A stretch of 64,000 bases of DNA, taken from Paramyrothecium sp. XJ0827. Its lineage: Eukaryota; Ascomycota; Sordariomycetes; Hypocreales; Stachybotryaceae. Numbering within the stretch: the first letter of the stretch is position 1; each line of letters begins with the position of its first letter. Both the position numbers and the translations under genes were made by a program. Shown here in pieces: positions 36,258-63,559 of the stretch. Location of the stretch: assembly GCA_020881915.1 (NCBI GenBank), contig JAJFPB010000004.1:5394001-5458000 (forward strand), read 5' to 3'. Under the pieces are notes generated by a model. It ran no database searches and was not told the origin of the DNA. It saw only the letters and a list, made by a program, of their open reading frames with translations.

Positions 36258-38131
36258 TTAATATTCGTCCATGAAGATTGGCCTGAAAAACTCCTCCAGT
36301 TTATGAACCTCGTCGAGTCCTGCAGCGAATGCAAATATCCCGTCTGGCCTAACAATAACCACACCACCTCTATCATGGTAAATACCGTAGCGATCATGTG
36401 CAACATGGTCCTTGTCGAAATAGACATGCCCAATCGCTGGACCATCGAAAGCCATCCAAGTCGAGGCGACAGAGCCGACCAGGATAGTAGCTATGTTCAA
36501 TTTCTCAGCATTCTCGCTTAAAGGGCGGTTGGGCTTAGCCATTTCTTGTCGTAAGTCGTTATATCGTGCTTTAGTCTGATGATGCGAGCCCGCAAAGACA
36601 AGGATCGACCACTGGCCGGTGCCTTTCCCGCCCCTCTGGATGATGCTATGTAGACGGACAGGGACCGCAGGTCCCGGGGCCTGTACGAGAGCATCTGGGC
36701 TGCGGACACCGGGGGCCAATGTGGAACAAGTGGGTTCTCTGCATAGTACCGACTTGCTATAGCTGATGCCTAAGCCGATAGTAAAGCTCATGTTCTGTTC
36801 CAGAATGTTTTTCAGAGCTTCTTGACCGTTCAAGCCTATTCCTAGCCATTGCTCAGGCATGTCTCCTGACACGGCTTGAACAGCCAGTTTGTCAATGCTG
36901 ATCAGCTTCTGTGCAGCCTCTCTGCGCTCCACGGAGTATGTGTCCAGAATTTGGGGCTTGTACCACCCTTTCAGCGTGCCGGCGAGCTTCCACACCAGGT
37001 TAGTCGCATCATGGACTCCAGTGTTCATGCCTTGCGCAAAGGCTGATGAGTGGGTGTGGGCAGCATCTCCAGCTAGAAAGATACGGGTATCCTTGCACAT
37101 TGTGGCCGCCACCTTTTGCTTCACGCTGCACCTGTCAGCGTCTCACGCTCAGATTGATTGCAGTGCCCCTTACGTGTAGTATGTCCACCAATCCAACCGC
37201 TCAATCTGCAGTTTGAACGGTCTGAGAGCTTCGATAGCCTCTTCCCTCACATTCTCCACACTGGGACCATGGGGATACTTCAGTTGCAACCTTGGGGTGA
37301 GGGCAAAGCCTATACGGTAAGCATCCCGGTCTAATTTGACCCAAAGTACATTGCCGTGGTTTGGAGTTTCCAGGGCAGCAAACGTGACATCAGGCTCAGG
37401 TATGTCAGTTCTGAACAGCCCGTCTAAACGGACCCATTTGTATGTCGTGTCTGTTCCTTCCATGTCTATATCTGCAATCTTCCGGACGGTTGACTGTCCA
37501 CCGTCGGCACCGACAAGATATTTGCTGTGTAACATCAGCCACAAATTGATGAAAATTTGCCAAGTGAAGCTGACCATTGTATTTTCTTGATCCCTTCTAT
37601 GGGATGAGAGATATCGGCCGTGATGTATTTGCCTTCTAAATTTGAAGTTTGGCTAATGTTTTCCAGCTTGTATTCATAATTGACCTTTTTTCCGTGGTCG
37701 CTGTCAAGCTTCGCGGCGAATATCTGCTGAAAACTCCTCTGCCGGAGATTCACAATGTAGTTGTGGAAACTGCTGTCCATCATCGGAAACATGGATTGCC
37801 ACGCTCTCCTTGTGACCCGCTGTCCGTGGGCGTAGGTGGCATAAGATCGTCCAATGAAAGCGTTCTGGGCAATATCATTCCCCAAGCCGAAAGAGTCCAG
37901 GAGCTCCATCGTCCGTGGATAGATTGTACATGCTCTCCCGAAAGTCTGTTGCTCCCCCAAGCTTCTCTTCTCTATCAATTCACTCAGCTTTCTGGCTATT
38001 GCATTAGGCGCTACCTTGGACTTACCAATGATCACGACATCGATGCCTTGCTGGGCAAGACCTAGGGCCGTGAGCAAGCCCACGGGCCCAGCTCCAACTA
38101 CCAACACATCAGTAAATTCCGGAATCGACAT
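36258..38131 (-). CDS. FAD-dependent aromatic hydroxylase (phenol 2-monooxygenase type)
   Basis: Three exons, 38131-37575, 37524-37174 and 37131-36258, give 593 aa, the usual size of fungal phenol-hydroxylase-type enzymes. The N-terminal FAD motif is VLVVGAGPVGLLTALGLA. Joining exons 1 and 2 restores CKYLVGADGGQSTVR (DG motif), and exon 3 has RIFLAGDAAHTHSS (GD motif). The C-terminal about 170 residues form the thioredoxin-like domain, with IYHDRGGVVIVRPDG near the end. The family hydroxylates aromatic rings with FAD and NAD(P)H; some fungal relatives do so with loss of a ring carboxylate. An aminobenzoate or prenylated derivative is a plausible substrate given the neighbours. It is divergent from a P450 over 443 bp. 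Confidence 0.88.
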
Positions 38132-38574
38132 GGTAAGGTGAATCTACGAAGACATTGAGCTGTTCCACAGAGGCACGGAGACAGACGGTGTGCGCCTTGC
38201 ATGTCCTCGAATGGAGGAAATGCCACCCGTCGTTATCGACTGCATTGTCGTTTGATAGCCACTGGGAGAACCGGATCGGGAATAATTTCTCGCCCTAGTT
38301 TGACGTCCGGTATTCGCAGGTGGATCTGCATCGGTGGTTGGCAATGCACGACCGGTGGTTTTGCTTTGGTATGGATGGACAAATGCCGTACCGGGGTGGG
38401 CCCATCGGCGGTTCCATACAGACATCAGACCCTTGATAGAACAAGGATTGGATCCTTTTGCTTGAGTTGATGTACATTTCCAAGGGCTCACGGTTTGGGA
38501 CAAGCTGCTGTTGAACCCCCAAAAACTATTCCAGTGCATTCCTTTGACTGCTCCAGACCGCACACACAGCTGAA
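38132..38574. promoter_or_regulatory. divergent promoter (monooxygenase / P450) with CGGYGGTT sites
   Basis: This is a 443-bp head-to-head spacer. It has CGGTGGTT at 38353-38360 and CGGCGGTT at 38406-38413. The same octamer family recurs in other intergenic regions of the cluster, and CGG-containing sites suit a Zn2Cys6 regulator such as the one encoded at 43 kb. The binding role is inferred. Confidence 0.4.
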
Positions 38575-40384
38575 ATGATAGAACCCAGTGCGGCATGGCA
38601 TTTGCGTCCCTCCACACTCGTGGTGGCGGCGGTGGCCGTGGTTGTGCTGTATGCACTCTACATTCGAGCATTGCCTAAACCTATCCCAGGGATTCCTTAC
38701 AACAATGAGTCCGCCAATCGACTCATGGGTGATGTGCCGGATTTCCTTACTCTACTCAAGGCAGGAAAGCGTCCACGGAATTTCTGGGTAAACCTGAGTC
38801 GACAGCACAAGTCGGTCTTGACGCAGTATTTTCTTGGACCGTTTCAGAAACCATGCGTTGTCTTGTCTGATTTTCGCGAGATCCAAAATCTACTCACCAA
38901 ACAAGCTGCATCTGTCGATCGAGGAGCGCTCATCACAAATCTATGGTCCGGGGCCATTCCTCACCATTTCATTGGTATGAATGCGTCTGACGCCAGGTAC
39001 AACGAGTCCAGGAACCTGAGCAAGGACCTCATGACGCCGAGCTTCCTTCATACTGTGAGAAGATTATTGAAGAGGCTAGCGATCCCGCATTAACACTGTC
39101 CAGGTCTCAATTCCCGCCTCTTACGAAAAAGTCTTGACTTTTATTGAGATGTGGCAGTTCAAGGCAGACATTGCTGCGGGTCGACCATTCACTGCAAGCA
39201 ACGATCTGAATTTTCTCACGTCGGATGTTATCCTCACAGCTGCCCTGGGTATCGAAAATGACGAATGCGACACCGTCATCAACCTTGAGAAGCTTAGGCA
39301 TACGCGATTCAATCGTGAATCGTCAGGCGACGATAAAGAGCCATTCGTGTTTCCCGAAATCAAGCCCAACGGCCTGTTGAAAATGATCTTGACGCTTGCA
39401 GATGCTGTAGGCGGCGCCGCTGCAGCTCCCTCAATCAAGCTGTATTGGTTCTTCATGAAGCTGAAACCGTCCTATCGTCGAGCATTGAGAGCCCTGGAAA
39501 CGCTATTGCAGCTACACATTGATAGGGCCAAGGCACGCGTGATGCGGAGCAGCAGTGACTCAAAACACCACGCTGCAGTCGATTTCATCGTTTCACGGGA
39601 GTTGAAAGCCGCAGACTTGGCAAAACGTCCCCCAGCCCTCGAAGATGCGAAGCTCCGTGATTCCCTATTTGGGTACTGCTTGGGTGGCCAAGACACAACA
39701 CACAGTGTTCTATCGTTTCTCGTCAAGCAGCTGGGGATCAACCAAAATGCTCAAAGCTGTCTTCGCTCGCAACTACAGTACACCTATGAGTTGGCATCGA
39801 AGCAAGGTCGCAATCCTACGGTTCAAGAGTTCCTGAAGGCCCAAGTACCATATTTGGATGCGTTCATTGAGGAGGTGATGCGCCTCGATAGCCCGGCTCC
39901 CGTGCTAATTAAGGAGACGGTCAAAGAAGTGCAAATTCTTGGAAATCCAATACCAAAGGGAACGAGCATATTCTGCAATGTGTGGGGGCCGTCCATTGAT
40001 GAGCCTGCTTGGCCGGTGGATGAAAAGCTACGTGGTGGTACGGTTAAGACGTCTCATCATGAGACACCGGGCGATTGGACGCACTGCGGATATCCTGCCG
40101 GAGAATTTTGTCCTGAAAGGTGGTTACGAAAGAATCCGAAGACGGGGGCGACTGTCTTCGATATCAAAGCCGGTCCAACGCTGAGCTTTAGCGCAGGTCC
40201 GCGAGAGTGCTGGGGTAAACGTCTGGCATATCTAGAACTCAAACTCATGACTACTCTACTTGTGTGGAACTTTGAGTTTCTGTCTTTGCCGGCTGGATTG
40301 GTAGACCGAGAGGCCCTCGATAAACTGAATGGGAAGCCGAAGAGATGCTTCGTCCGCTTGGTCAAAGTAGAGAGGAAGAATTGA
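38575..40384 (+). CDS. cytochrome P450 (cluster P450 1)
   Basis: Two exons, 38575-39054 and 39104-40384, with a phase-0 intron of 49 bp, give 586 aa. An N-terminal membrane anchor (LVVAAVAVVVLYALYI) precedes a Pro-rich hinge (PKPIPGIP). The I-helix reads LGGQDTTHS, the K-helix ExxR is EEVMR, and the heme loop is FSAGPRECWG with ligand Cys529. It is clearly paralogous to the P450 at 61.8 kb, sharing MGDVP, AGKRPR, SDFRE and the same intron site. It would oxidise a cluster intermediate at the ER membrane with a P450 reductase. The reaction cannot be predicted. Confidence 0.9.
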
Positions 40385-40818
40385 TCTCAGAATTATGCAA
40401 CCCATGAAAAGGCATAAAAGAACTCACGAGTTCCTTCGCTTCGCTCTTAGAGCCGATTCGTAGTCCCTCAGACAGCTCAAGTAAGATATCACGACTTTTT
40501 CATGACTTCCACCAGGACCTGGGCCGTGAAGAAGATCCACTTCCGGACAGTATGCCAGTCCGAGGTGTGGACTCCAGCGTGCTGAATGGAGAACCGCAAG
40601 CCAAGAGTTAAGACCACCGACGACAAGTTTGCTGATCCCCGATCTTATTAACCACCGATGCATACCTCCGACAAGCTCTGACGTTAAACAATAATGCAGA
40701 TTTGAGAGAGAGAGAGAGAAAACCCCTAAATACCCCACTCTTCAAGGTGCAAGACTCCAAGCTGACAATAATCAATTAACACACTGGTCCCCTTGCAACC
40801 ATAAGATATCCTATCGAA
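40385..40818. promoter_or_regulatory. prenyltransferase upstream region
   Basis: Two sites on the minus strand match the cluster motif: CGGTGGTC (complement of 40612-40619) and CGGTGGTT (complement of 40650-40657), about 40 bp apart and 160-200 bp before the prenyltransferase ATG. A short GA repeat runs at about 40705-40719. Confidence 0.4.
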
Positions 40819-42148
40819 ATGACAGAGCTCATCAATACCGCTCAACACCAGGGATCTGACCTGATGATGGAACCCACTGGTGACAAAGAGTGAGTTCTAT
40901 GAAACGCGATTTGCAACTACCCTGACACACCACAGGCGCAAGAACGATCTTCAGTATTGGTCTGACCACTGTCTACCGGTATTTGAGTCGTTTTTGAAGA
41001 ACACAAACTCCTACTCGGATGAGCAACAAAAATCTCATATTCGATTCTTTAAAGATGCCATCCTGCCGAACATTGGTCCCCGCCCTATTTCAGGTGCGGC
41101 ATATCTATTGGCTCATACAGGATCTGTGATCGAGATCAGCATCAATTTCAACGATTTTGGGAAGCCCATTGTTCGTTTCATCTTCCAACCCTACTCTATA
41201 CGGGGAATCCCAGGGGCGCTCGGTGCCGACATGACATGGTATCGGCAGCTTGCCTCTGTGTTTTCTGTGAACGAGGAAGAGAAGTCCATTTTGAAAGAGA
41301 GGCTTCCTGGGTTGGCAGATATTCCTCAGTGCTTACTAGGGTTCGATTTGCACCCTGGCAAGCGATCAATGAAGGCATACTTCGGATCCATATATAAGCA
41401 GGTGCTTAGTGGAGAAAATACCGATGCCTTGATCTTCAACACGCTAAAGCGCTTGGAACCCCTTGGCCCAGAACTCGCCAACCCCCTGGCCAAACTGGAG
41501 GAGTTCAGGATCGCCGAGCCGCAGCCGTATATTGGCGTCATCGGAATCGACTGCATCCGACCAGATGCCGGGGCGAGAGTTAAGCTCTACACAAGAATGA
41601 AGGCTGGCGTGAATGCATTTCATACTGTCGAGCACCAACTGACCCTCGGCGGGCGCTTGGTGAACGAAGAGATCAACCGGGGGATTGAAATACTTCGAGA
41701 TGTCTGGCACTTGCTGCTTGACGAACCAGAGGAGTTCACCCAGATTACAGAGTCCAAGCCTGAAGCTGATCCGACCAGCCCGCACTCTGGCATCATGATC
41801 AGTTGGGAGCTACAGCCCGGCAAGTCTGCGCCGTCGCCCAAGGTCTATGTGCCACTCTGGAAGTTCAGCAACAGCAATCGGGCCATTGCAAGCAACTACG
41901 AGAAGATCCTTGCGAAATGGGGTTGGAGCTGGGGGCAGGACGGCAAATACAAAGAGGCGATTGCAAATGCCTTGTAGGTTGACGCTCCCGCTATGACCAT
42001 CAAATACTGACCGTACATTCGCAGCGGGGGGGATGGTGTGAGCGACGGCTCAGAAATAATCCACACGTACTGCTCCTTCAACTTTTCGGCGAAGAAGGGC
42101 AAATATATGACCTCTTACACGTCGCCTCGACTGGCCACCCACTCCTGA
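40819..42148 (+). CDS. DMATS-type aromatic prenyltransferase
   Basis: Three exons, 40819-40889, 40936-41973 and 42025-42148, give 410 aa, the usual size of the family. Introns are 46 and 51 bp. Exon 2 carries the ABBA-barrel signatures: a conserved Glu in the SVIEISINF segment, then LHPGKRSMKAYF and the RVKLYTRM strand, whose basic and Tyr residues match the diphosphate shield, and finally KVYVPLWKF. Exon 3 restores the usual ending IIHTYCSFNFSAKKGKYMT. The family moves a dimethylallyl or longer prenyl group onto an electron-rich aromatic ring without metal. Tryptophan is the classical acceptor, but here the local aromatic supply is from chorismate through the ADC synthase, so an aminobenzoate-type acceptor is a reasonable inference. 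Confidence 0.9.
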
Positions 42149-42915: not shown

Positions 42916-44112
42916 ATGGGTCCAAGTCGCGAAGCCTGCGATCGTTGTCACGACATGAAGACTCGATGTGTCCGCCCAGACGACTCTGCCACTACACAAT
43001 GCACACGATGCAGTCGACTGGGCGTCCTGTGCAATTTCAGTCCACCGGGGAGGGCTGGGCGTCCATCCGGACGAAAACGAACACGAGAAATCTCGAATGA
43101 ACCTCGCCCTGGGTCTTCGCTCGAAGGTATGCACTCTGGTGCAGCAGTTCTTGAACAATTCTGATGATGTCTGGTCTGTGTAGACTCGCACTTCGGATCC
43201 TCGTATCCATGCGTCACCGATGCGCGCTCCCTAGATAACCTCGAGATTGATCTGGCACTGCAATGCGATCCGACCTTCCAACTACAATCGTGTCGTGACC
43301 AGGATGCCGCATCGATCTCATTTATGGATGATCTCCTCGATAATCTATTCCACTCAGACGGAACCCCCACGAACACGGCGACGTCGGACGAGTCAAATTG
43401 TACAAAGCCATCTAGCGTCGAGCTGCATCTGGATGCTGCCATTGACCCACGGTTACGAGACGGGCCCTCTCCGTCTACGCCCCTATCCGAGCATCAAGAA
43501 CTATTCAGTCAACTCCTGGATTTTCAGCTGCGAGTGGCAAAGCTCATCAAATATCTTTCAGGGGAACAGAATACCCCTGAGGATGTCGAGGAACTATATC
43601 GAGTCAGCTCTGCCATGACTACCATAATCGACAGCATGGGTTCTGCACAAGGCAACGACTCCACCAGCACTCGACCAAATGGCATCGTCATTCTGGCGTT
43701 GGCCAACTGTTACTACAGTACTTTACATGCATACGGCCTGCTAGTAAGGTCTCTGAACCGTGAGCTGAACGAGCCCGGAAATCAGCCTGAAAGTGCGAAG
43801 CTAGCGGATGACTCTCCGAAAGCTTCCACCCACAGAGGTGTACCATCCATCAGCATTGGTGCCGTTCGCCTTTCCGTGCCCCGCAAGGCAGTGGCTAAGG
43901 TTAATCTATACTTGGTTTCCCAAACCATAAAATTACTCCGAGATTCTATGGATGCGCTCTCGTCAAGAAGAGAAAGTGACGATCAGGTATTAGAAAGAAG
44001 AAACCCCTCGACAAATTGCGCGAGAATGACCAGAATGGCGATTGATGAGTTAGACGAACACGAGCAGGGGTTGATGAACGGTCTCACGGCTATCCCATTT
44101 TCTGCAGACTAG
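42916..44112 (+). CDS. Zn2Cys6 transcription factor (AflR-like), putative cluster regulator
   Basis: Two exons, 42916-43126 and 43184-44112, with a 57-bp intron, give 379 aa. The N-terminus has the binuclear zinc cluster with spacing C-x2-C-x6-C-x10-C-x2-C-x6-C (ACDRCHDMKTRC ... CTRCSRLGVLC), followed by a basic Arg/Lys linker (GRPSGRKRTR). The rest, with acidic and Ser-rich stretches and the LFSQLLDFQLRVAKL helix, resembles the AflR-type C-terminal region found in secondary-metabolite regulators. Its central position suggests that it controls this cluster by binding CGG-type sites in the intergenic regions. Confidence 0.87.
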
Positions 44113-44658: not shown

Positions 44659-45820
44659 ATGGACGCCGTTATCGTACAAGAGCCTGGGAAGGTTGCTGCT
44701 ATCCAGCAAGTACCCATCCCAAAAGTTAGGGACGAGTGGGTGCTCGTTGAGGTGAAGGCTGTGGCGGTCAATCCCACCGACTGGAAACACGTCGACTACG
44801 GCGCAGCAGACCCCGGCTCCAAGGTCGGATGCGAATATGCTGGAGAAGTGAAACAAACTGGCGCCAAAGTCACAAACTTCAAGGTCGGCGACCGTATCGC
44901 AGGATTTGTTCGGGGGAGGTGGGCACTTCTCTGACTCGAGGCATTTCCCTTGCTAATATGCCGATCAAAGCGACCGACTCGATCACGAGAATGGTGCCTT
45001 CAGTAGATACTTGATCGCAAAGGCTTGCATGCAATTCCATATCCCAGACCACCTCAGTGACAATGAGGCAGCCACCCTGGGCGTTGCCATTACCACAGTT
45101 GTAAGGGAAGCCCGAAGGCCGTGTCTGGAACCCGCAAGGCACTTACTAACTTAGTTCACTTAGGGACAAGGACTTTTCAAGGCCCTCCAGCTGCCCAGCC
45201 CTAACGCCCCGGCAATTGAGCCGGCGACAGTGCTCATATATGGCGCCAGCACCGCAACGGGTCTTGTCGGTGTCCAGTACGCCAAAGCTTCAGGAGCCAC
45301 CGTAATCGCGACGGCTTCAGCACGAAACTTTGTTTACTTGAAAGATCTAGGTGCAGATGAAGTCTTCGACTACAACTCGCCCACTTGCGCAGCCGATATC
45401 AAGGCTGTCACAAAGAATAAGCTAACCCTCGCCTGGGACTGTACAGGTACTGGCACAGAAATCTGCGCCGCTGCCATGAGCGACACTGACCCCGGTCGCT
45501 ACGCTACGATCAATCCCGTTGACAAGGACGTCCTTCGTCGCATCAACCCTCATGTCGATGGGCCTTACTTCACGCTTGGCTACGACGCCTTGGGCGAGCC
45601 ATACAGCTTTATGGGCAGGCTTGTGGAGCCGAAGCCTGAAGAGATGGGGTGGAGTATTCAGTTCTTGAAACTGAGCGAGGAATTATTGAGAAAGGAAGTC
45701 ATCAAGCCAGTGAGGGTGACACTGAACAGTGGTGGATCGGGACTGGAAGGCGTTCTCCATGGGTTGGATAAACTCCGAGCAAATGAAGTCAGCGCCACAA
45801 AATTGGTTTATTCGTTGTAG
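44659..45820 (+). CDS. trans-acting enoyl reductase (LovC-type MDR)
   Basis: Three exons, 44659-44918, 44971-45100 and 45164-45820, give 348 aa. The N-terminus (VAVNPTDWKHVDYGA) and GCEYAGEV...GDRIAGFVRG are typical of the LovC/trans-ER branch of zinc-free medium-chain reductases. Splicing restores ENGAFSRYLIAKA and AATLGVAITTVGQGLF. The NADPH fold is LIYGASTATGLVGVQYAKASG. In the lovastatin system the trans-ER reduces the polyketide chain on a PKS whose own ER is dead. The PKS here also has an ER with an altered NADPH site, so this enzyme is expected to work in trans with it. Confidence 0.88.
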
Positions 45821-45853
45821 TGCGAAATTCAAGAGAGAACCCGAAGTCTTTGA

Positions 45854-48403
45854 TTAATCGATCGACATGAGAGCTCCAAGCACACTCGAAGCCTTTGTCT
45901 GCATCTCCTGAAACTCCCCTTCATCCGTACTCTGAATGGTAACCGCGCCTCCAGCACCTACAGTCCAGCATTCATGACCACTTACGGAGTCGTCGTGATG
46001 TTCACCATGGCCATCCACTACACCATTCTCAGTCTCGTACGGGCATCGACCATTATTTCCACTGCTTTTTGCCGAACTCCGAACAGCAGTGCGAATAACG
46101 ACTGAGAAGTCCCCTCCTCCACCCACATCCAAGTACCCTAGAACACCAGAGTACAAGCCTCTGGGTCGTTGTTCGATATCGCGAAGTATTTCGCATGAAC
46201 GTTTCTTGGGTGCCCCCGTCATGGACCCTGGAGGAAGAGATGCTTGCAAGATGTGGATGCCGTGCGACTTTGGTGCGCCCTTCTCCCGGGCCGGTGGACG
46301 CCCTTCAATCACGGACACTAGTTGGTAAACAGTCTGATACTCCTCAACAACCATCAGTTTCGAAACAAAAGTGTTTTCTGCTCCAATGACACCACTCAGA
46401 TCGTGACGTATGAGATCTACTATCATGAGATTCTCAGCTTGCTCTTTAGAGCTATTGAGAATTTCATGAGCGCGTTCCCGCGTCATCGTGGGTCCCTTTT
46501 TGACCGTTCCTTTGATGGGCCGAAACTGGACATGGCCCTCTCTGGACCAGCTCAGAAATCTCTCCGGGCTACTGCCCACCACCACTGTCTCTCCAAGACG
46601 CAAAAAGGCCCCGAATGGTGCAGGGTTGTTTTTTCGCAACGTCTTGTACAAGTTCCATGGCGTGAGCTGTGCGGATGTGCCAGTGGTTGGGATAAACATT
46701 TTGGACTCGTCCGTCAAGCATAGCTCGTATGAGTCTCCGGATCGCAGAAATTCTTGACATTGCAGAACCTTCGCCTTGTAACGTGACTCTGCCGGTCGAA
46801 CAAGTCGGGTGTTGGCCAAGGGCTTGTCCAAGAAAGGACTCGAGTTCTGTGACGCTGATTTTCCATCGGACGTAGGACAACCAAGAAACGACACCGAGGA
46901 TGTGAGTTCCTTATCCGAGCGTTTGGAAGAAATTCTGCTCGAATAATCATCTATGATCCTTCCAATGTCAAGAATCCATGGCCAATCCCCAGGCATAAGC
47001 GACTGTATATAGACTTGCGACTTCTCGTGATCAATGACGATGCTGCGATGGATAAATGCAAAATTGACATCTGGAGCCAAGGTGGTTGCGCAAGAGGGAT
47101 GAAGGTCGACATTAATTGTCTGTAAACCGGCCTCGTAGGAGATATAGCCCATAAACCCTCCCCAGAAAGGACTGTCCGAAGGTGGATGCCCAGCGACGAA
47201 CCTATCCATTGCGGACAATTGCACCTTCTCGCCAGGGGCGAAGGCACTTGGATTATTCATGTCAACAGCCTCTTGTATGATTGGCCACAGTTCATCTATA
47301 GATGCGAGTTGCAGCTTTGAAAGTCGTTCTCCTTCCAGACCGTACTGCATTGTTCGATGCCAAGAGTTGTAGGTGATCTTCATTGTCTTACCAGGCATGA
47401 CAAGCCCAAGTATACTGTACCTGCCAGATGGGTGATTCTGCGAGTCGAGGAGGACAACCTCATCCTGCTGCAGACCTAGAGTGTCCACCAGCCATGCGCC
47501 AGTAATCTGAACGGAGGGATGTCGTCCCCAGCGGAGGAAAACATCCTCATTTCCAGTCACTGATTTGAGTTCCTGTGCCAGTGTACATGGTAACGGAGAT
47601 GGATCTTGCACCCTCCCCGCGTGTGCACGTGCGAATGGCTGAAGTGCGCTGGTCCCATTATTGCGATTGATGATGGCAGGCCGATTGTGTCTGGACAGCC
47701 ACTTCTTGGCGTAATTCCACCAGTTTGCAACCACCAATCTTCCTGCTTGTGACGTGCAGATAGACTCCGGATGGAATTGCATGCCCCAGAAAGGCTTTTG
47801 CACATGGCGAGCTGCCATCAGAATCGAACCGTTATCCTGTTTGTGATCGATGTCCCAGGCTAGGGGCTGAAGAGAGGGACACTTGCTGGAGGGACTCCAA
47901 CATATGCCACCAGTCTTGATCCCGTCTATGGCATCGGGTACGCCAATATCAGCGTGTAATGAGTGATACTGCGTGGCATCAACCTTGCCAACCCCGGAGA
48001 AGATGTCTGTATTTTGATGATGAGCCCGAGACACGATGCCATGACGAGGTACTTTCAATTTCTCCACTTTTGCGCCATGAGCGATGCATAAAGACTGGAA
48101 GCCTAAACATATTCCTAGGATTGGTATCATGTCCTTGATGCCAATTTTCCACAAGTCTGGGATGAGCCCGACATCAGCGTCAATGGCCGGATGCCCAGGC
48201 CCTGGCCCGATGACAACGGCATCAAAACATTTCAGCACATCGCTCAGGTCTCGACGGACCTCTAAGTTGTCGATGTGAACAATGGTCACGCTCGCCCCAG
48301 TCTGCTCTTCCAAGAGGCCGATAATGTTGTTTGTAAAGGAGTCGAACGCATCGATATAGAGAATACGATTAAATCGCAGGAAATCCGGGCCCAGGGATCC
48401 CAT
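45854..48403 (-). CDS. bifunctional aminodeoxychorismate synthase (PabA-PabB fusion, PABA pathway)
   Basis: One exon encodes 849 aa. Residues 1-250 are a class I glutamine amidotransferase with nucleophile Cys99 in GICLGFQSLC and the His-x-Glu pair in MQFHPES. The C-terminal half is a chorismate-binding domain with PIKGTVKKG, LPPGSMTGAPKKRS and GAGGAVTIQS. The Lys of PIKGT is the mark of aminodeoxychorismate synthase; anthranilate synthases have PIAGT. The product would be 4-amino-4-deoxychorismate. Conversion to p-aminobenzoate needs an ADC lyase, which is not in the window and may come from folate metabolism. Fungi normally have one such gene for folate, so a copy inside a PKS cluster points to supply of an aminobenzoate building block. 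Confidence 0.9.
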   Translation of the reverse strand: MGSLGPDFLRFNRILYIDAFDSFTNNIIGLLEEQTGASVTIVHIDNLEVRRDLSDVLKCFDAVVIGPGPGHPAIDADVGLIPDLWKIGIKDMIPILGICLGFQSLCIAHGAKVEKLKVPRHGIVSRAHHQNTDIFSGVGKVDATQYHSLHADIGVPDAIDGIKTGGICWSPSSKCPSLQPLAWDIDHKQDNGSILMAARHVQKPFWGMQFHPESICTSQAGRLVVANWWNYAKKWLSRHNRPAIINRNNGTSALQPFARAHAGRVQDPSPLPCTLAQELKSVTGNEDVFLRWGRHPSVQITGAWLVDTLGLQQDEVVLLDSQNHPSGRYSILGLVMPGKTMKITYNSWHRTMQYGLEGERLSKLQLASIDELWPIIQEAVDMNNPSAFAPGEKVQLSAMDRFVAGHPPSDSPFWGGFMGYISYEAGLQTINVDLHPSCATTLAPDVNFAFIHRSIVIDHEKSQVYIQSLMPGDWPWILDIGRIIDDYSSRISSKRSDKELTSSVSFLGCPTSDGKSASQNSSPFLDKPLANTRLVRPAESRYKAKVLQCQEFLRSGDSYELCLTDESKMFIPTTGTSAQLTPWNLYKTLRKNNPAPFGAFLRLGETVVVGSSPERFLSWSREGHVQFRPIKGTVKKGPTMTRERAHEILNSSKEQAENLMIVDLIRHDLSGVIGAENTFVSKLMVVEEYQTVYQLVSVIEGRPPAREKGAPKSHGIHILQASLPPGSMTGAPKKRSCEILRDIEQRPRGLYSGVLGYLDVGGGGDFSVVIRTAVRSSAKSSGNNGRCPYETENGVVDGHGEHHDDSVSGHECWTVGAGGAVTIQSTDEGEFQEMQTKASSVLGALMSID

Positions 48404-49019: not shown

Positions 49020-50073
49020 CTACCCATAGAAGTCAAAATCATCACCTTTAATCTCTGAAGGGAAGCCTATTATGTTCTTCTTTTCTCCGGCAGAAAGCGT
49101 GATACCAAACTTTTCCTCCAATGCCACAAATCGATCATTCTCAGAGTAGAACTTCTGAAGAACTTCGGTTTTACCTTTGTAGTTCATCCTCATCTCGCTT
49201 TCCAAAATCAACAAATACCCCACGGGAGTTTTGCCCTCGTACAGCGTCTGGAAGCAGCAGACGGAGGGTGCAACCCATCCGGTACCTAAAGTCGCATAGC
49301 CCAGACGTATGAGCTGAAAGTCCATGGGTAGCCATTCGGTTTCTGTAAAGCACCATACGTCCAACCAAGGTTCATGTTCATCGTGTCGAATTTGTACCCG
49401 CCACCATTTCTGCTCAGGACTAGCCCACCCCGGGATGGAATCGAATATGACTCGTCGCTGTCTTGGCCAGATATCCACGGCCGGTTCGTCGTGGACAAGC
49501 GGTACTGGCGTCGGAGAGCCCGATGGACCGTGGCTAGTGTCGACGATGTATCGACGTTGTCCGACCGTGACAATTGTGTTCAAATGGACCCTGATGTTCT
49601 TAGCATTATTTCATCAAGAAGGGCGCATCTCTAACGAACCATGGACCATACGACGGGACGGTTCTGTCAAGGTGCGGGTTGGCCAGTATCCCGGCTGCAG
49701 CGTTGATGCGGCTTCCCGTACAATAAACACGGAATCCAAAGTGCTCTAGCAATTTAGCAAAAAGTGGGTGAATCTGATCGCAGACACCACCTAGATTCCT
49801 TTTGATAACTCGTTCAAAGATCACATCCAGATCTTGCGTGAGAGAGTGGTGTTTAGTGTAGTGTAGGTCGAGGTTTTCGAACGGTATAGTGTTGAGGTGG
49901 CATCTTTGCAGCTCTGTAATGGCCTCGAGTGCATGATCGCCGTCTGGACCGTCTGACAGCCAAGATCTCTCCCTGTCCGGAAGCTTGACTCGTTCCAGGT
50001 ATGCATTCACCTGCTCAGTAGAGAGTGGCACGCTGCGAGGCAGTTTGGAGCCTAGAACTTGCTTAATGGTCAT
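49020..50073 (-). CDS. arylamine N-acetyltransferase family (candidate amide-forming enzyme)
   Basis: The first segment, 50073 to about 49630, starts with ATG and has the NAT N-terminal pattern NTIPFENLDLHYTKHHSL and the catalytic Cys98 in RNLGGVCDQIHPLFA. The rest, about 49610-49020, lies in another frame and carries the catalytic His in IRVHLNTIV and the Asp in RRYIVDTSHGP. The frames must be joined near 49584-49660, either by an intron of about 61-64 bp with a weak GTC donor or by a frameshift. The full triad is present. NATs move acyl groups from CoA to arylamines; the related amide synthases of ansamycin clusters (RifF) release a polyketide onto an aminobenzoate-derived amine. Divergence from the PKS and the adjacent ADC synthase favour a similar role here. 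Confidence 0.8.
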
Positions 50074-53600: not shown

Positions 53601-56600
53601 TTTCCCCATCCCGTGCTGAATCATCGACTCTCTACTATTACCAACTTGCCTACCTATCAATGGAATCACTCCAAGAAGTACTGGGCAGAGTCACGGCTGA
53701 GTCGCGATCACAGGCTAAGGCCATTTGCTCGTACAGATATACTAGGAGCTCCTTCTAGCGATTGGAACCCTATGGAACCACGGTGGCGGAATTTCATTCG
53801 CCTCTCTGAGCAACCTTGGGTTAGAAGCCACGTTGTGCAAGGCCTAGTTGTGTACCCTGCAGCGGGATACATCTGCATGGTCTTGGAAGCTGCTGCCCAA
53901 TTGGCAGTGAGACAGAAACAGATGAATGACTTTGACAACTCTTCACGCCCTGTGTCCGAGTACAAAATAAGAGATTTCAATGTCTCACGTGCCTTGGTTG
54001 TTCCGGAGACAGAGGATGGTGTTGAAGTCATCTTGTCTATCCGCGTCAGCCCATCTACGAGCGAACTGCCGCTGAGTGTCTGGAGCGAGTTTCGGGTATT
54101 CTCTTACACAGACGAGGCTGGCTGGGCGGAGAACTGCAATGGTATGGTCGGGATATCATACCGGTCAGATGAGGACTTGAGCTTGAGCCCGCCCGACTTG
54201 CAAAATATTCCATCAAAGGCATCAAAGGCAGGAGAGGATTGCTGCGAGATCTGTATCCCAACTCCAGACCTTTATGCAGGCTTTGACTCCGTCGGCCTTC
54301 ACTATGGACCCGAATTCCAAGGGATTGTTGACCTACGGGCCGGCAGTGGCCAGGTCAGTGGCACAGTGAAGGTCATAGATACTGCCCTTGGAATGCTTCA
54401 TGGCTTCGAATATCCGCGATTAGTTCATCCTGCAACCATGGACAGCTTTTTACAGGCCAGCATTGCTGCCTTGACCCATGGCCGCATGGCAAACCTGAGT
54501 CGGCCATATGTGCCATTGAGCATCCAGGATATCCGCATTTCTGGAGATATGGCGATGCCGGCTGGGAGTATGCTCAAAATTTACGCACAAACCCGGACCC
54601 GCGGCAAACGAGAAGCGCTCTCTACCGTTAAAGCTCTCGTTCAAGGTTCAAGTGCCTCCATCTCCCTTGAAAATGTGAAATTGATTGCTCTTGCGTCCGG
54701 TTCTGAGGTTGCTACCACCGCCGTCGTACCAAGCCACATTGCAACAGTCGTCTGGGAACCAGATGTCGATCTTATTAGTAAAGAAGAGCTTGATACACTT
54801 ATGCAAGATGCCGCCAACATAGAAACAGACAGTGCACGATTGAAGAATCTCGAATTCCTGGCTTATTATTTCTTCAACAAAGTCTTAGATACGATACCAG
54901 AGAGCGAAGTGCAACACATGCATTCGCACCATCAAAAGTACTACCGCTACATGAAGCACCAGAGGGATCTTGTTATTTCCAACAAGTATGAACAGCAAAG
55001 CCCCGACTGGCTAAGGCTTGGGGATGGCGATGTCATTAGCAAGGCTGAATCCCTGCTGAGCCTGTTTGACAAGAAGACAGACTTTGAGGGAACAATGTTC
55101 GTCCGCATGGGGCGTGCTCTCACGTCTGTGCTACGTAAAGAGGTGGATCCCCTCTCACTGATGATGAAGGATAACCTCTTGCACGAATATTATACGGTAT
55201 CGCTCGGTACTCAAGGAACATACCCACAAGTGCAGAGGTACCTCTCGCTACTCTCTCACAAGTACCCAGACCTTGAGTATCTCGAGATAGGTGCTGGGAC
55301 AGGAGGCTGTACAACGCCTGTGTTGCAGGCCTTGAGCGGCACCGAGAACCGTCATTACCCGAGGATGAAATCGTACACGTACACAGACATCTCTTCTGGT
55401 TTCTTTGAGAAAGCAGCTGAGAAGTTTAATACCTGGGCAAGTATGATGAATTTCATGAAGCTTGACATAGAACAGGACCCTGAGACACAACCAGGGTTTG
55501 AGAACAAGAAATTCGACGTCATCATTGCCGCAAATGTGCTACACGCGACATACGATATTCAGCGGACCATGCGCCACGTCCGAAAGCTTCTCCGTCCAGG
55601 TGGCAAGCTGGTGTTGCTTGATATGACTCACTCAGTTCTCTCAGTCTCGCTCATCTTTGGCAATTTGCCAGGCTGGTGGAATTGCTCCGAACCATGGCGA
55701 GAGTACGGGCCATTGTTGGATGAGACCCAGTGGAGAAATGTCTTGATGGAGAACGGATTCACAGATTTACAGGCAAGCACGCCTGATGTACTGGATCCGT
55801 TGGGCGAGCAAACGAGAGTCATCGTAGCGACTGCTATTGAACAGCCAGGATCTGGATTGATCGAAAATCGTAGGATTTCTCGAGTGCTCATCGTTACCCA
55901 AAATTATCACGCAAAGGAAGATGCCTTGATACATAGCACTGTGACCAAGCTGTCCAGTATGTATCTTTCTGTGGAAGTATGTACGCTGGAGGAGTCAGCC
56001 AGCAGAGGGATTGAAGAAACCGCCGTCATCAGCTTCTGTGAGTTCCATGATCCGCTTCTCAAGGACATTTCTCAGTATGACCTTGAGATTATCCAAAGCC
56101 TTCTCCAAAACTCAGCAGGACTTCTTTGGATCACCAGTGGCGGATGTTCATCCAAAGCTTACAAGCCGGATCTTGCCCTCTTTCAAGGGTTGGCTCGTTC
56201 TCTGAGGGCGGAGCGAGAGGATTTTCCCTGTCTTACTCTTGACCTCGATGCACACTCGACTCTCGCAGTAGAGAAGGTTGCAGATCTGGTCGCAAGGGTC
56301 TTTAGGCAGGGTTTCCAACTGGGTACTCAACAAGTCAACCGTGTGATAGACCGTGAGTTCTCCGAAGAGAAAGGCTATTTGCGAGTCAAGCGTGTTGTGG
56401 AGAATACGAGACTGAATGAATTGGTCGCCGCAGAGGCCAAAGACATTGACATGAGTCCCGACACGAAAGTTCTCAACGATTTCGAGGACCCTGTCCAGGT
56501 GACAGTCAAGACTTTTGAGAACAAAGCCGAGGTGGTTTTCAAAGCTAGTCCTTTCGCTGTCTCGCTTCCCGTGCCCGACGATCACGTGCAAATCAGAGTG

Positions 56601-58728
56601 CACGCATCGGGCTTGACAAACAGAGACGTGCAGCTCTATAAAAGTTCGCTCGATGACGGAGAAGAACTACTTGGAGAGGAGTGCTCTGGGGTTGTTACAG
56701 AAGTCGGCAGTGCGGTCGAACGTGTAACGATAGGTGATCGTGTTGTCGCATGGTGCAAGGGGGCTTTTGCTACACATGTGAGGATCCCTGAGCAGCACGT
56801 ACACAAAATTCCATCAGAAATGAGCTATCAGGCAGCCGCAGCTCTCCCAGTTGCCCATGTCACAGCTTACTACAGCCTATTACATATTGCTCGAGTTCAG
56901 AAAGGCCAAACAGTCTTGGTCTACGATGCAGGCAGCCCAACGGGGCAAGCTACTGTCTCTCTTGCGCAGTCATTAGGAGCTGTTGTCTATGCCACAGCCA
57001 CGACGGATGACCAAAAGAACACGCTTGCTGGGGCTTTCAACCTCCCAAAAGATGATATATTTACAATACAAGACCCTCTCTGCATCAGCCAGATGCATGA
57101 AAGAATCAGGACCAGAAGCGTCGATATCATCTTGGGCAAGTTAGAATTCGAATTTCTTCGCAACATCTGGGATCTCGTCGCTCAGCTTGGGTGGATCATA
57201 CAACTCGGAGATGATGACCTTGATATTGCGGCTTGTCAATCGGGGTCGCCGCAGGCGAAGAACATTATGTTCACGAAATTCGATATTTTCAGCCTCTTCT
57301 TACATGAAAGTGACTTGGCACTCAAGACCTTCGCAAGAGTCATGGAGCTTACGAGTGGCTCTGGCCTACGAGAACCCTCGCCATTAATTGTCAAGCCATT
57401 TTCGGCACTTGGGCAAGCTCTTGGAGGTGACATTGACGCACTTATGGAGAGGAAGACAGTCTTTGAGTTTAGATCTGACGACAAGATACCAGTAAGCTAC
57501 TTTTGGCATGTTTCACTAGATTTATGTTGATCAAATGTTACAGGTTATACCGAGAAAATTGGGTCCTATGGCGTTCCAAGCTGACGCATCTTATCTTCTC
57601 ATTGGTGGTTTCGGCGGACTCGGTCGCAGCATATCCAAGTGGATGGCAAATAATGGTGCTAGGAACCTCATCTTCGTCTCTCGCAGTGGCAGCTCATCTG
57701 AAAAAGCAATGTCTCTTCTCCAAGAGATGGAGTCACTAGGAGTTCAGACTAGGACACTTCAATGTGACATCACGGATGAATTGCGGTTCTCTGCATTGTT
57801 GACGGAAGCACTTGCCAGCTTGCCCCCTATTCGGGGTGTCATTCAGGGCGCAATGGTTCTCAAAGACCAAGTCTTTGCAAACATGAGCCATGATTCCTTT
57901 ATGGCATGCTTGAAACCAAAAGTTCAGGGATCATGGTCTCTTCACCAGGCCACCTTGGGACAGCCGCTGGACTTCTTCCTCCTTCTTTCATCGTGTGCAT
58001 CTTTTTGGGGTAACGCAGGCCAAGCTAACTACGCTGCTGCATGTGCCTATCAAGTCGCTCTTGCGGCTCATCGACAATCGCTTGGCCTGCCAGCGACAGC
58101 TGTTGACATCGGCAAGGTCACAAATGTTGGCTTCGTCGCTGAAAACGCAGGCACTACCTCCGAGAAGAATCTCATCAAACTTGGTCTCTTAGACATCAAC
58201 GAAAGAGAATTGCTGGCCATGTTGCAGATTGCTATGCGTCCCGCGGCTACAGATCGCTCCCGAGATGTACCAAACGGTCATATGCTCACAGGTGTCAGTT
58301 CTTCCAATGACCTAGCCAAAGGAGATGAGCTTCCTTTCTGGAGCCGAGACCCTGTCTTCTCACACATGGATTTCGTACGATCACATCTGCAAAAATCCGA
58401 GACCGGAGGAGAGTGCAAAGGTGGATCATTCACAGCTAAGTCGCGATCGATGTCTGAGCAACTGATGTCAGCCACTTCAGCAAGCGAAATCGAGGCTTGC
58501 ATCCTTGAGGCCTTGATTCCAAAGCTCGGACGGGCTCTGATGATGCCGCTGGAAGAGATGGACGGAGAGAAGTCTATAGCTACCTATGGTGTGGACTCTT
58601 TGGTTGCTGTGGAATTGCGCAACTGGTTTGCCAGAGAGGCAAAGGTGGAAATGCCGGTTTTTGAAATTCTGCAGGCACCATCTCTCATCAGTTTGGCGAA
58701 CAAGGTAGCTGTACGTCTTAGCGGGTAG
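50632..58728 (+). CDS. highly reducing type I polyketide synthase, KS-AT-DH-MT-ER-KR-ACP
   Basis: Four exons, 50632-50841, 50926-52615, 52675-57491 and 57544-58728, give 2633 aa. KS (about 15-440) has Cys187 in DTACSSS plus EAHGTGT and NIGHLEG. AT (about 590-900) has Ser680 in GHSSGE. DH (about 980-1290) has His1019 ([16 protein letters not shown]) and Asp1223 (HPATMDSF). The C-methyltransferase (about 1440-1690) keeps [10 protein letters not shown] (about 1920-2236) has an odd NADPH loop, [10 protein letters not shown] rather than the usual AAGGVGQA, and GDDD where GKRD is common, so it may be inactive. KR has [10 protein letters not shown] and Tyr2402 (GQANYAAAC). ACP has Ser2591 in GVDSL. 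No thioesterase, reductase or condensation domain follows. The product should be a reduced, C-methylated chain released by a separate enzyme. Confidence 0.93.
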
Positions 58729-59421: not shown

Positions 59422-61065
59422 TCAGATCTCATGTTCCGCTTGTTTATCAAATCTCCAGAGCGGCTCTTTTCTCCTCCGGAATCGTATTGATGCTTTAAGA
59501 GGTGGAAAGAGAGCAACGCTCAGTGTTGGATTTTGCGGCCGTTCACGTAGTGGCTCAAGGTCATAGTTCAACAAAATATATGCCAGCATCACTTTAAGCA
59601 TATTCGCAGCAAAGAAACGACCAGGACAAGCGTGACGACCAGAGCCAAAGGCAGTATAGTCTTTTGTGACCGAAATCCAGTTTTGTCGAGCCCGCTGCAA
59701 GGCAGAAGCACCTTCAACATCCCGAGCTGCTGCGAATCTGAACGGCTCAAACTTTTCTGGATCTGGACCATAGATCTCCGGGTCATGGAGCACTGGGTAG
59801 CCCAGGATCGCGGGATAGGCACCATAGGGCAAATGGAGACCAGACGGAGTAGTGACACCTTCAGGAACGGATACTGGCTTGGGCGATGCAATTGTGACAA
59901 TGCTGTTGAGGCGCTGCGACTCACGGAAAACCGAGTCAAGCTTGGGCATGTCTCCGAGTGTTCGCTTGTTCCAGGCGCCATCGTTCTTTTCCAGGCCAGC
60001 AACAATTTCAGCCCGCAGCTCTTCGATGTATTCCGGAGAGCCGGCAGCTAAATCAAGTAGCACATGGGTTATGGCGAAGGTGGTCGTGTGAATGGAGACA
60101 AAATTGGTCAGTAAGACTCGACCCATGATCGTTTCGGGTTTCATCCAGTACCGGTTGCCGCTTTGGACAGCAGAGTCGATTGTGTACTGCATGAAATCGT
60201 TGTACTTGACGTTGGTGGCCTTTGGGTCTGCTCGGTACTCACGCATTCGTCGATTTAGCTCTGGCCGTAGCTTGTGAAAGAATCGCCAAGTTGCCATTTT
60301 CTGTGGCAACGTCAGGAAGAGGCTGAACAGAGGCCTCACCGACTGCGGGATGCATCGTAGAATTACTGATGTGAAGCCCAGGCCACGAGAGAACTCGATA
60401 CTGTCAGTGACCAGTTCTCGATTACGGCACAAGACGGGGCCGACAAAGGCCAGATTCATGATGCGTCCCACAACATCCGGCATGTCGTCCAGCAGCACAT
60501 ACTCCTTGAAGTTCTCGGCATCGGAACCCCAGCCATCGTCCACACTGCTCGCGATTTCGTCGGCGAGAGTTGGCAGAAGTCTGTTGGTCTCGCGTGTCAA
60601 ATGAGTGTTGATGAGCGTTTGATGGATTGGATATTCGTCCTCTACCAGCCGCGGGTCGGTGATGGTGAAATTGAGCTGAAAAGCATTCAACTGGTTCCAG
60701 TGGGCGGAAAGGACTCCTTCTGGCTGATCGTGATACCATGCCACGTCTTGGGGTGGTATGATGACGGCTTGTCCCATCTCGATGACGGGAAGAATGCAGG
60801 CTTGATCTTTGTACTGGTATGCCTCATTGCAGGCTCGTCGAATGTCCATCGAGTTGCGCCACATGGCTCTCCATACTGGGAACCACTCGCCCTCTTTAGC
60901 ACCAACAATAGGTAATTTGGGAAGTTTAGGAGAGGTCTCGTACGGCAGCTTAGGCCGCAATAGTTCGTATAAGACTGTTCCGATAACCAGCAGCCCGAAA
61001 CTCAAACCTATGAGTGAAAGCCAGCTCAATGCAGCCAAACGAGTTATCCAAGGTTCGAAAATCAT
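59422..61065 (-). CDS. cytochrome P450 (cluster P450 2, HTTT-type I-helix)
   Basis: One exon from the ATG at 61065 encodes 547 aa. An N-terminal anchor (WLSLIGLSFGLLVIGTVLY) is followed by a Pro/Lys hinge. The I-helix has SIHTTTFAITHVL, the K-helix ExxR is ESQR, and the heme loop is FGSGRHACPGRFF with Cys480. This pattern belongs to the branch of fungal biosynthetic P450s that includes gibberellin-type oxidases, and differs from the other two P450s of the cluster. It is divergent from P450 3 over 700 bp. Substrate unknown; likely an oxidation late in the pathway. Confidence 0.88.
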   Translation of the reverse strand: MIFEPWITRLAALSWLSLIGLSFGLLVIGTVLYELLRPKLPYETSPKLPKLPIVGAKEGEWFPVWRAMWRNSMDIRRACNEAYQYKDQACILPVIEMGQAVIIPPQDVAWYHDQPEGVLSAHWNQLNAFQLNFTITDPRLVEDEYPIHQTLINTHLTRETNRLLPTLADEIASSVDDGWGSDAENFKEYVLLDDMPDVVGRIMNLAFVGPVLCRNRELVTDSIEFSRGLGFTSVILRCIPQSVRPLFSLFLTLPQKMATWRFFHKLRPELNRRMREYRADPKATNVKYNDFMQYTIDSAVQSGNRYWMKPETIMGRVLLTNFVSIHTTTFAITHVLLDLAAGSPEYIEELRAEIVAGLEKNDGAWNKRTLGDMPKLDSVFRESQRLNSIVTIASPKPVSVPEGVTTPSGLHLPYGAYPAILGYPVLHDPEIYGPDPEKFEPFRFAAARDVEGASALQRARQNWISVTKDYTAFGSGRHACPGRFFAANMLKVMLAYILLNYDLEPLRERPQNPTLSVALFPPLKASIRFRRRKEPLWRFDKQAEHEI

Positions 61066-61765
61066 TGCGCAAAGTTGAAACACAGAGGTTGAAGCTGATG
61101 CCAAATGAATATGTTGATCTCGTTATGATCACGCCACGGTGTTCGCAGTTGGTGCTCCTTGTGTGCAGCAACCAAAAAACGTGACCGCATTAAACAGCAG
61201 CCAGTTCATTGAGTACTTGAGCAGGCTTTTAGCCAACTCAGGACCAGCAGGCTTTGAATCCTTCGTTCTGTGCTGTATTGCATCTACTCCCATTGGCTGA
61301 AACTCACCGGAGCTCCCCACAACGGAGGTTACTACCCCAACGGACACCACTCCCAACCGCCGTGTACTATCCATGGGCAAATGCACGCATCTTCCTTCCA
61401 TTGCCGATAAGCAATTATCAACCTCCGACGGGTAGCCGTGCTGTGGGCCCGCAATGGAATCCTGGCCATCGGTGAAGTCGACATCGATCGGCCTATACAT
61501 GAATATGTGGCTTCGACCATGACACCCCAGCTCGCACGATCCTTCTTGCGGAATGGTCCAAGATACCAGCCCCTCCTGTCCAGCGACAGGGGCCCTATAT
61601 TAGACATTGTATCATATTTTTCATACCATGTCGTCAGACAGAGGTAAACGACCAGCGATTAAGTAAACCAGGACCTCGTCGTCCAGTTTTTGAAAGTGAA
61701 ACGCCAGATTCGTCGATTCAAGGCCAAGTCTGTGTCACGCTTTCTGGAACATTATACTTTTCACA
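61066..61765. promoter_or_regulatory. divergent promoter (P450 2 / P450 3)
   Basis: This is a 700-bp head-to-head spacer. CGGCGGTT (complement of 61355-61362) matches the motif found in the other cluster promoters. Confidence 0.4.
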
Positions 61766-63559
61766 ATGGACTACCTGAAATACGGAACTGCCACGTCTGT
61801 CTTGATCTGCAGCCTGGCCATCGTTGTTGTATACATATTATATCGGCGCTGTCTACCAAAGCCCTACCCTGGAATTCCACACAACGAAGATTCCGCCCAG
61901 CGGTTAATGGGCGATGTCCCGTACATCCTGGAGTTGGCAGCCGCTGGGAAACGTCCCCGCGACTTCTGGGCCAATCTTTGTGTCAAGAAGAACTCACCCA
62001 TAGTTCAGTTCTTTCCCGGTCCATTCTTCCAGCCGCTCATCATCATTTCGGACTTTCGCGAGGTCCAGGACCTTCTCGTCCGTCGGTCAAAGGAAATTGA
62101 CCGCGCATATATCAGCAAGATCATGTGGTCCGGTGTGGCCCCCGACCACTTTGTTGGCATGGGCGCTTCTGATCCTCGTTTCGTTCAAGCTAAGCAGTTG
62201 GTGAGGGATGTGATGGGTCCCGCATACATCCAGAATGTGAGCCGGCTATGCTTCTTCGCTCCATCTTCACCTCGCTAACACAAGACCCAGGTCGCTACCC
62301 CAGCAGCGTACAGCAACGTCTCCAATCTTGTGGAGTTATGGAAATTCAAAGCACAACTGGCCGGTGGCCTGCCTTTCAAAGCTATCAAGGACCTCAATTT
62401 TCTCACGGCGGATACTATTTTTGAAAGTGGCCTGGGCATTCGTGGTAAGGACAAGCATTTGGCTCAACAATCGGAGCGTCTCCGGGAAGCTGGCCTCGAA
62501 AAAATATCCATTTCTCCTGAGATGAACATCTTCGACTTCCCCGAGTTTCATGAGACAGGCCTGTTGGGCACAATCGAGACCATTGCCGAAGTTGCTGGCG
62601 AGTTTCCAACGTCTCCTATTATCCAGCTATTCTGGCCGTTGGCAAGCTTACGTCCAAAATTGAAGTCAGCACGCCGTACCCACGCTCAGCTCATAAAAGC
62701 TCACATCGACATGGGTGTCTCACGATGGGAGAAAGAAGGGCCCCCTGCCCGGCCTGAGAGCGCCTTGGATGCGATGATTCACCGTGAGCGTTTGGCCGCC
62801 AAAAAAGAAGGCCGCTCCCCCAATTATCACTCCCCCTTGTTCACAGATGGACTATATGGATATTGCTTCGGAGGCCAAGATACAACTCACAGTGGGCTCT
62901 CCTTCCTGGTCAAGTATTTTGGAGCCTATCCCGACATACAGCGACGTTTACGGGATTGCTTGCATCAGACTCATTCTGCTGCGGTGAGCGATAACCGTTG
63001 GCCTACCGCAGACGAGATTATGCAAACTCCTGTGGCGTATCTGGATGCGTTTACGCAAGAGGTATTGCGATTGAACCCTTCGGCATCAGCTGTACTCAAA
63101 GAATCTGTCGATGACATGACAATTCTTGGCCACCACATCCCAAAAGGTGCTCAACTTCTCATCCCTCTCTGGGGACCTTCCATAGATCAGCCCGCAATCC
63201 AAGTCCCTGAGCATGTCCGAGGCTCCAAGGACTATACTGGCGGGACCACTTGGGACGACACGCCATTCCCTGCGGCTGATTTCAACCCAGATCGCTGGTT
63301 ACAAACAGACGAAAGAGGGGGGATGGTTTTCAACAACAAAGCCGGGCCATACCTGACGTTCAGTTTGGGCCCCCGAGAGTGCTGGGGTAAAAGATTGGCG
63401 TACCTCCAAGTCCGCATATTAACAACCTTGCTTGTTTGGAATTTCGAGTTTCTTCCTTTGCCTGTTGAGCTAAACAATTGGGACACCGAAGACATACTCA
63501 ATGCTAAGCCTAGGGTGTGTCTGGTTAGATTGCGAACCTTGCCAGAAGCAGGGTCATAA
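61766..63559 (+). CDS. cytochrome P450 (cluster P450 3), paralogue of P450 1
   Basis: Two exons, 61766-62236 and 62291-63559, give 579 aa. It has a membrane anchor (VLICSLAIVVVYILY), hinge PKPYPGIP, I-helix FGGQDTTHSG, K-helix QEVLR and heme loop FSLGPRECWG with Cys521. The intron sits at the same place and phase as in P450 1 at 38.6 kb, and long blocks such as RLMGDVP, AGKRPR, SDFRE, PRECWGKRLAYL and LLVWNFEFL are shared. The pair arose by duplication and now brackets the cluster core. They may oxidise successive positions of one scaffold. Confidence 0.9.

Follow-up and report, generated by a model that had tools for sequence, protein, structure and literature searches.

A run of ten genes in the fungus Paramyrothecium sp. 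XJ0827 on balance forms a single biosynthetic cluster that would make a prenylated aminobenzoate (or aminophenol) bearing a reduced, C-methylated polyketide as the acyl group on its nitrogen. The run occupies positions 36258-63559 of the stretch of DNA analysed here, which is 64,000 nucleotides long and is referred to as the window (C10:5394001-5458000, on a host contig of 5.61 Mb in a genome of 51.8 Mb and 15 contigs). From left to right, the genes encode a FAD monooxygenase (-), cytochrome P450 A (+), an aromatic prenyltransferase of the dimethylallyltryptophan synthase type (DMATS, +), a Zn2Cys6 regulator (+), a trans-acting enoyl reductase (+), 4-amino-4-deoxychorismate (ADC) synthase (-), a NAT-family acyltransferase (-), a highly reducing polyketide synthase (HR-PKS, +), P450 B (-) and P450 C (+). 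All ten had been listed by a sequence-only reading of the window, and all are present in the interval as judged by family models or motifs. The product suggested by that reading stands in part: its source of p-aminobenzoate (PABA), its prenyltransferase and its C-methylating PKS are supported, while the amide bond and PABA as the prenyl acceptor are what we infer. Gene identities, motifs and the pairwise conservation of three of the genes are the observations on which the proposal is built, and the substrates and the order of the steps are deduced from them. This ten-gene set is not known to be linked with any described product.

In the proposed pathway, the dedicated ADC synthase would form 4-amino-4-deoxychorismate, which an ADC lyase encoded elsewhere would convert into PABA, and the DMATS would add a dimethylallyl group to the ring. 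The FAD monooxygenase and the P450s may oxidise the ring, the prenyl group or the chain, and loss of the carboxyl group is possible. The HR-PKS and the trans-acting enoyl reductase would build a short methylated chain, which the NAT cysteine would take from the PKS carrier protein (or from CoA) and pass to the aromatic amine; such a transfer would both release the chain and form the amide.

More tentatively, and with somewhat less than even confidence, the cluster may be a eukaryotic version of the ansamycin/manumycin scheme, with a NAT that unloads an iterative HR-PKS directly onto prenylated PABA supplied by a cluster-dedicated ADC synthase; it would be spread over what we take to be several ascomycete orders, judging from the fungi named below, with a product class that we could link to no cluster. 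If so, NAT would be a new release partner for HR-PKSs that lack a release domain, an aniline-amide branch would be added to the fungal polyketides, and it would become clear why, in ascomycetes, genes of a NAT subfamily with no assigned role that we found keep turning up next to those for ADC synthase and DMATS. The trio of ADC synthase, NAT and DMATS would also make such clusters easy to search for.

Aminobenzoate supply and probable prenylation

The ADC synthase gene (45854..48403, reverse strand) encodes a glutaminase-PabB fusion of up to 849 amino acids (aa), with a possible C-terminal intron. The protein scores 639.8 bits against the fungal equivalog model TIGR01823 (cut-off 442.55), which bears out the aminobenzoate pathway of the earlier reading, and contains the motifs PIKGT (with its Lys), GICLG (with the glutaminase Cys) and HPES (the HPE motif). 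The Lys of PIKGT presumably marks an ADC synthase, and at the same place the best-matching chorismate enzyme of the genome has PIAGT. An identity as anthranilate synthase was rejected, the PIKGT motif and the equivalog model both pointing to ADC synthase.

A second copy in the genome (L003) matches the window ADC synthase at 35%. All 120 listed homologues (the best 120 of 2133) score higher to the window copy than to L003, a comparison that leans towards the window copy because the hits were found with it and because the L003 frame lacks its N-terminal part. A housekeeping role for the window copy is unlikely in view of these scores, and the best reading is that of a divergent enzyme probably dedicated to the cluster. 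The tree gives no resolved single clade of cluster copies, the 25-row set that includes the window copy being drawn open, with long branches that meet. Among the listed ADC synthase matches, Neurospora P0121 and P0122 and others indicate that the divergent type occurs in more fungi than its NAT partner does, and further products derived from aminobenzoate may therefore depend on it too.

The DMATS gene (40819..41977, forward strand; intron 40890-40935) encodes a protein of 370 aa with a PF11991 match, which has the family fold and scores 247.1 bits against the NCBIfam model arom_pren_DMATS (cut-off 163.85). Its score against the tryptophan DMATS model TIGR03430 is 73.6 bits, far below the cut-off of 740.75, and tryptophan is thus probably not its substrate; the aromatic prenyltransferase of the earlier reading is confirmed at the family level. 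A DMATS-like frame elsewhere in the genome (C13:4138593-4139711) has three internal stop codons and is either a pseudogene or an intron-containing gene.

The polyketide synthase and the candidate amide synthase

The HR-PKS (50632..58728, forward strand; three introns) has 2633 aa and, by Pfam and motifs, the order KS-AT-DH-CMeT-ER(degenerate)-KR-ACP. Motifs look intact in the KS, AT, DH, C-MeT, KR and ACP domains, while the cis-acting ER, which the earlier reading had passed over, has its NADPH motif changed from GGVG to SPTG. This change matches the presence of a LovC-like trans-acting enoyl reductase of 348 aa (44659..45820, forward strand; introns 44919-44970 and 45101-45163), which finds LovC (3b6z) with an E value of 3.6e-43. 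The pair resembles LovB/LovC in combining a C-MeT-containing HR-PKS, a cis-ER with an altered NADPH motif and a LovC-like partner, and differs in that the cluster PKS has no domain after the ACP; LovB carries a condensation-like domain. The synthase thus ends without a release domain, a point likewise missing from the earlier reading, and no gene for a thioesterase, reductase, condensation enzyme or other acyltransferase came to light in the ten gene models.

The NAT gene (49020..50073, reverse strand; intron 49591-49639) lies head to head with the HR-PKS gene, 558 bp away, and encodes 334 aa, proposed here as the amide synthase. Both exons match PF00797 (53.8 and 25.9 bits, cut-off 22.8), and Cys, His and Asp stand at the triad positions in GGVCDQIH, VHLNT and VDTSHG, as read in the gene model and its relatives. 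The signature GGxCxxxH is present in 10 of the 10 relatives that hold this segment (26 relatives in all), and two of the three other NATs in the genome, those in which the motif was caught, read CMELN and CMEIA. A predicted model of the family (P0002, pLDDT 77.3) fits best to classical NATs, with Fusarium FDB2 first, and further matches are the bacterial arylamine N-acyltransferase 8k56 and GdmF, the latter ranked below the classical NATs; the comparison is coarse, as the root-mean-square deviations are large (about 15-16).

Recurrence in other fungi

Three protein searches returned 26 NAT, 64 DMATS and 2133 ADC synthase homologues. Co-location was compared over all 26 NAT matches, 35 of the 64 DMATS matches and the best 120 ADC synthase matches, and the statements that follow hold among the matches listed. 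Two matches were placed on the same contig when their contigs had exactly equal base counts, and adjacency does not follow from a common contig alone when that contig runs to several hundred kb. Relatives of two of the three proteins ADC synthase, NAT and DMATS occur together on one contig in each of six named fungi, and likewise on five other contigs; one contig of 67,028 bases holds all three. NAT occurs with ADC synthase in Aphanocladium album, Xylariaceae sp. FL1272 and Rhypophila decipiens, NAT with DMATS in Diatrype stigma, and DMATS with ADC synthase in Byssothecium circinans and Monosporascus sp. 5C6A. Locus tags are two apart in A. album (PWT90_02932/02934) and Monosporascus 5C6A (DL771_008661/008663), and five apart in D. 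stigma (SLS62_003532/003537). Eight of the 14 NAT matches on contigs above 10 kb share a contig with an ADC synthase or DMATS match, and most of the best 120 ADC synthase matches have no NAT or DMATS partner. The recurrence argues that the three genes are more than chance neighbours and backs the link between aminobenzoate and prenylation genes made in the sequence-only reading.

A further case is found in Acremonium chrysogenum; statements given here and below with PMC numbers refer to the accessible passages of those papers. NAT2 of strain ATCC 11550 lies in JPKY01000133:1..34441, a region of the type Indole-T1PKS with no MIBiG match, while other fungal NAT regions in the same paper match characterised clusters, such as that of 8-methyldiaporthin (PMC11213898). 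Hybrid 8 of A. chrysogenum contains a dimethylallyltryptophan-synthase-like protein of 386 aa and a C-methyltransferase PKS of 2671 aa, and its mutations are numbered up to n.33388 (PMC11719821). Our DMATS search found an A. chrysogenum homologue (P0047) of the same 386 aa, matching the cluster DMATS at 43%. Protein sizes and coordinates suggest that the NAT2 region and Hybrid 8 are one region, although neither paper's passage names the other; DMATS, a C-methylating iterative PKS and NAT would then stand together there, in agreement with the earlier pairing of prenylation with a C-methylated polyketide. This is likely the same kind of cluster as that of the window, from which it differs in being known as a predicted region only and in having its ADC synthase homologue elsewhere. 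The accessible text of PMC11719821, a genome paper, contains no occurrence of "aminobenzo" or "N-acetyltransferase".

Weighing the proposal

Several observations weigh against a single cluster with an amide product. An ADC lyase gene is absent among the genes of the cluster; the genome has nine Aminotran_4 matches as candidates, and the proteobacterial PabC model gave three partial matches in the genome, none of them over the cut-off. Six of the 14 NAT matches on contigs above 10 kb, including those of Trichothecium roseum and Elaphomyces granulatus, have no listed partner, and the conservation searches cover the trio, with the PKS tied in through print for A. chrysogenum. In that fungus, a contig of 212,779 bases carries the ADC synthase homologue (P0093) and another, of 64,684 bases, the DMATS (P0047); an assembly break may have parted them, since the NAT2 region begins with the first base of its contig. 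AACCACCGATGCA occurs exactly in two promoters, and shared promoter words are not significant, the 9-mer count being reached in 22 of 60 shuffles and a common 13-mer being found in 55 of 300, which leaves co-regulation by a shared motif unsupported. Finally, in the fold comparison the NAT comes closest to Fusarium FDB2, which bears the title of an N-malonyltransferase, and PABA ranked with the poorer substrates when fungal NATs were assayed (PMC4542470).

The last two points bear on an explanation in which the NAT merely N-acetylates or N-malonylates a toxic amine as protection and another enzyme joins the PKS chain through an ester or other bond. The tested fungal NATs do acylate substituted anilines, one group of them with malonyl-CoA, and what NATs do when encoded close to fungal PKS genes is left open (PMC4542470). 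On the other hand, the family has a signature of its own that sets it apart from two other NATs of the genome, it recurs beside biosynthetic genes, and no other release enzyme is seen in the ten gene models, so that a purely protective NAT is unlikely here.

A second explanation, which the sequence-only reading had not considered, follows the benzastatin pathway: prenylated PABA would be N-hydroxylated, the NAT would O-acetylate the N-hydroxyl group, a P450 would exploit the nitrogen thus activated to close an indoline or tetrahydroquinoline on the prenyl group, and the polyketide would be attached in another way. For BezG, the NAT of the benzastatin pathway, the listed activity is O-acetyl transfer to p-hydroxyaminobenzoic acid, that is, N-hydroxy-PABA (PMC11213898), and the P450 BezE may work through a nitrenoid (PMC11843346). 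The cluster likewise brings together PABA supply, an aromatic prenyltransferase, a NAT, P450s and an oxygenase. The amide model fits a PKS without release, and the benzastatin-like model fits prenylated PABA with NAT and P450; yet the latter would still leave the PKS without a release enzyme, and monooxygenases of the phenol hydroxylase/VibO kind oxygenate carbon in the cases consulted, which together make it improbable.

Slightly less probable still are two adjoining pathways, one in which a conserved trio of ADC synthase, NAT and DMATS makes a small prenylated N-acyl-aminobenzoate, the other built on HR-PKS genes that are unrelated to it. This would accord with a recurrence, pairwise in several fungi, that covers the trio (PKS homologues were not searched) and with the non-significant promoter words. 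Against it stand the interleaving of the genes, with the trans-acting enoyl reductase and the regulator between DMATS and ADC synthase, the paralogous P450s near both ends, and the apparent grouping of DMATS, C-MeT PKS and NAT within a single region of A. chrysogenum.

Comparison with known systems

The biosynthetic scheme proposed here for an N-acylated, prenylated aminobenzoate is known from antibiotics of bacteria. Bacterial NATs close the ansamycins and are proposed to join the asukamycin chain to 3-amino-4-hydroxybenzoate, and the NAT genes tabulated within characterised MIBiG clusters belong to bacterial producers (PMC11213898). Ansamycin/manumycin-type clusters (RifF, GdmF, AsuC2, ColC2) share with the window an aminobenzoate supply, a PKS and a NAT-family protein, which acts there as an amide synthase or N-acyltransferase, whereas in the window cluster the amide is deduced; they differ in being bacterial, in using 3,5- or 3,4-aminohydroxybenzoate and in having no prenylation mentioned in the accessible passages, and asukamycin and colabomycin are listed as type II PKS products, unlike that of the window HR-PKS (PMC11213898).

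HR-PKS and ABBA-type aromatic prenyltransferase genes occur together in flavoglaucin-type clusters (fog, px), but the accessible px gene list, in which ADC synthase and NAT are missing, has short-chain dehydrogenases/reductases and cupins (PMC11161606). In these clusters the polyketide itself supplies the ring that is prenylated. Such a logic was set aside because it would leave ADC synthase and NAT unexplained. The accessible part of PMC11669671 concerns o-aminobenzoic acid.

The benzastatin cluster of Streptomyces (BezG, BezE) has in common, as described, a PABA core, a prenyl-type chain, a NAT and a P450; it differs, in the passages accessible, in its geranyl chain and in a NAT listed as an O-acetyltransferase. 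It is not known to have an HR-PKS and uses a membrane prenyltransferase. The basidiomycete vibralactone pathway (VibP1/2, VibO) likewise passes from a prenylated para-substituted benzoate to a phenol-hydroxylase-like monooxygenase, but it starts from 4-hydroxybenzoate, its prenyltransferases are membrane proteins of the UbiA type, and VibO reads ADG where the cluster enzyme reads ACT. No fungal precedent for a PABA-prenyl-PKS amide was found in the open-licence literature, MIBiG itself not being searched. The view that the cluster matches no known one holds as far as checked, with the tabulated MIBiG-cluster NATs bacterial and the A. chrysogenum region unmatched, and this uncharacterised predicted region is the nearest published entry found.

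Oxygenases, regulator, gene models and surroundings

The FAD monooxygenase (36258..38131, reverse strand; introns 37126-37173 and 37525-37574) has 591 aa, matches PF01494 and PF07976 and is of the phenol hydroxylase/VibO kind, with PDB matches to 8r2u (5.3e-45) and VibO 7yj0 (2.7e-44) for a 593-aa model differing at one splice site. The active-site Asp of phenol hydroxylase (ADG motif) is absent, the aligned residue being the Cys of ACT in GRACTIYPR. All three P450s match PF00067: P450 A (38575..40384, forward strand; 586 aa; intron 39055-39103), P450 B (59422..61065, reverse strand; 547 aa; no intron in the model) and P450 C (61766..63559, forward strand; 579 aa; intron 62237-62290). The outer pair, A and C, are paralogues with 44% identity, and P450 B has only weak PDB matches, the best being CYP51 (1.2e-18). 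The regulator (42916..44112, forward strand; 379 aa; intron 43127-43183) shows in its model the classical spacing Cx2Cx6Cx10Cx2Cx6C, and its Pfam Zn_clus score (PF00172) of 20.3 bits is just below the cut-off of 21.

Gene models were assembled manually by joining open frames across GT-AG introns, and all ten are open. The short introns and the gene families would suit a filamentous ascomycete. Introns were removed in eight of the ten, only ADC synthase and P450 B having none, so the open-frame edges used in the sequence-only reading are not gene edges.

To the left of the cluster, and outside it, are a gene of the protein-arginine deiminase family (32332-34116; PF03068, 353 bits), an enzyme uncommon in fungi, and about 2 kb of AT-richer DNA. 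On the right, coordinates above 64000 carry the window numbering past its end. A 184-aa gene with its 3' end in the window (63881..64000, continuing to 64432, reverse strand) possibly belongs to the cluster and is followed by a 239-aa gene (65284-66000, L005), upstream of which AACCACCGAT is present. Neither has a Pfam match or had been noted in the sequence-only reading, and each has only distant relatives within the same genome (26-28% identity). A chromate transporter gene comes next, and about 14 kb to the right of the cluster is a second biosynthetic locus with a non-reducing PKS (77447-83427; L006 5447-9000 and L007 1-2427), which has SAT, KS, AT and PS-DH-like domains, two ACP stretches and a TE, and is accompanied by a FAD monooxygenase of its own (L007:3987-5273).

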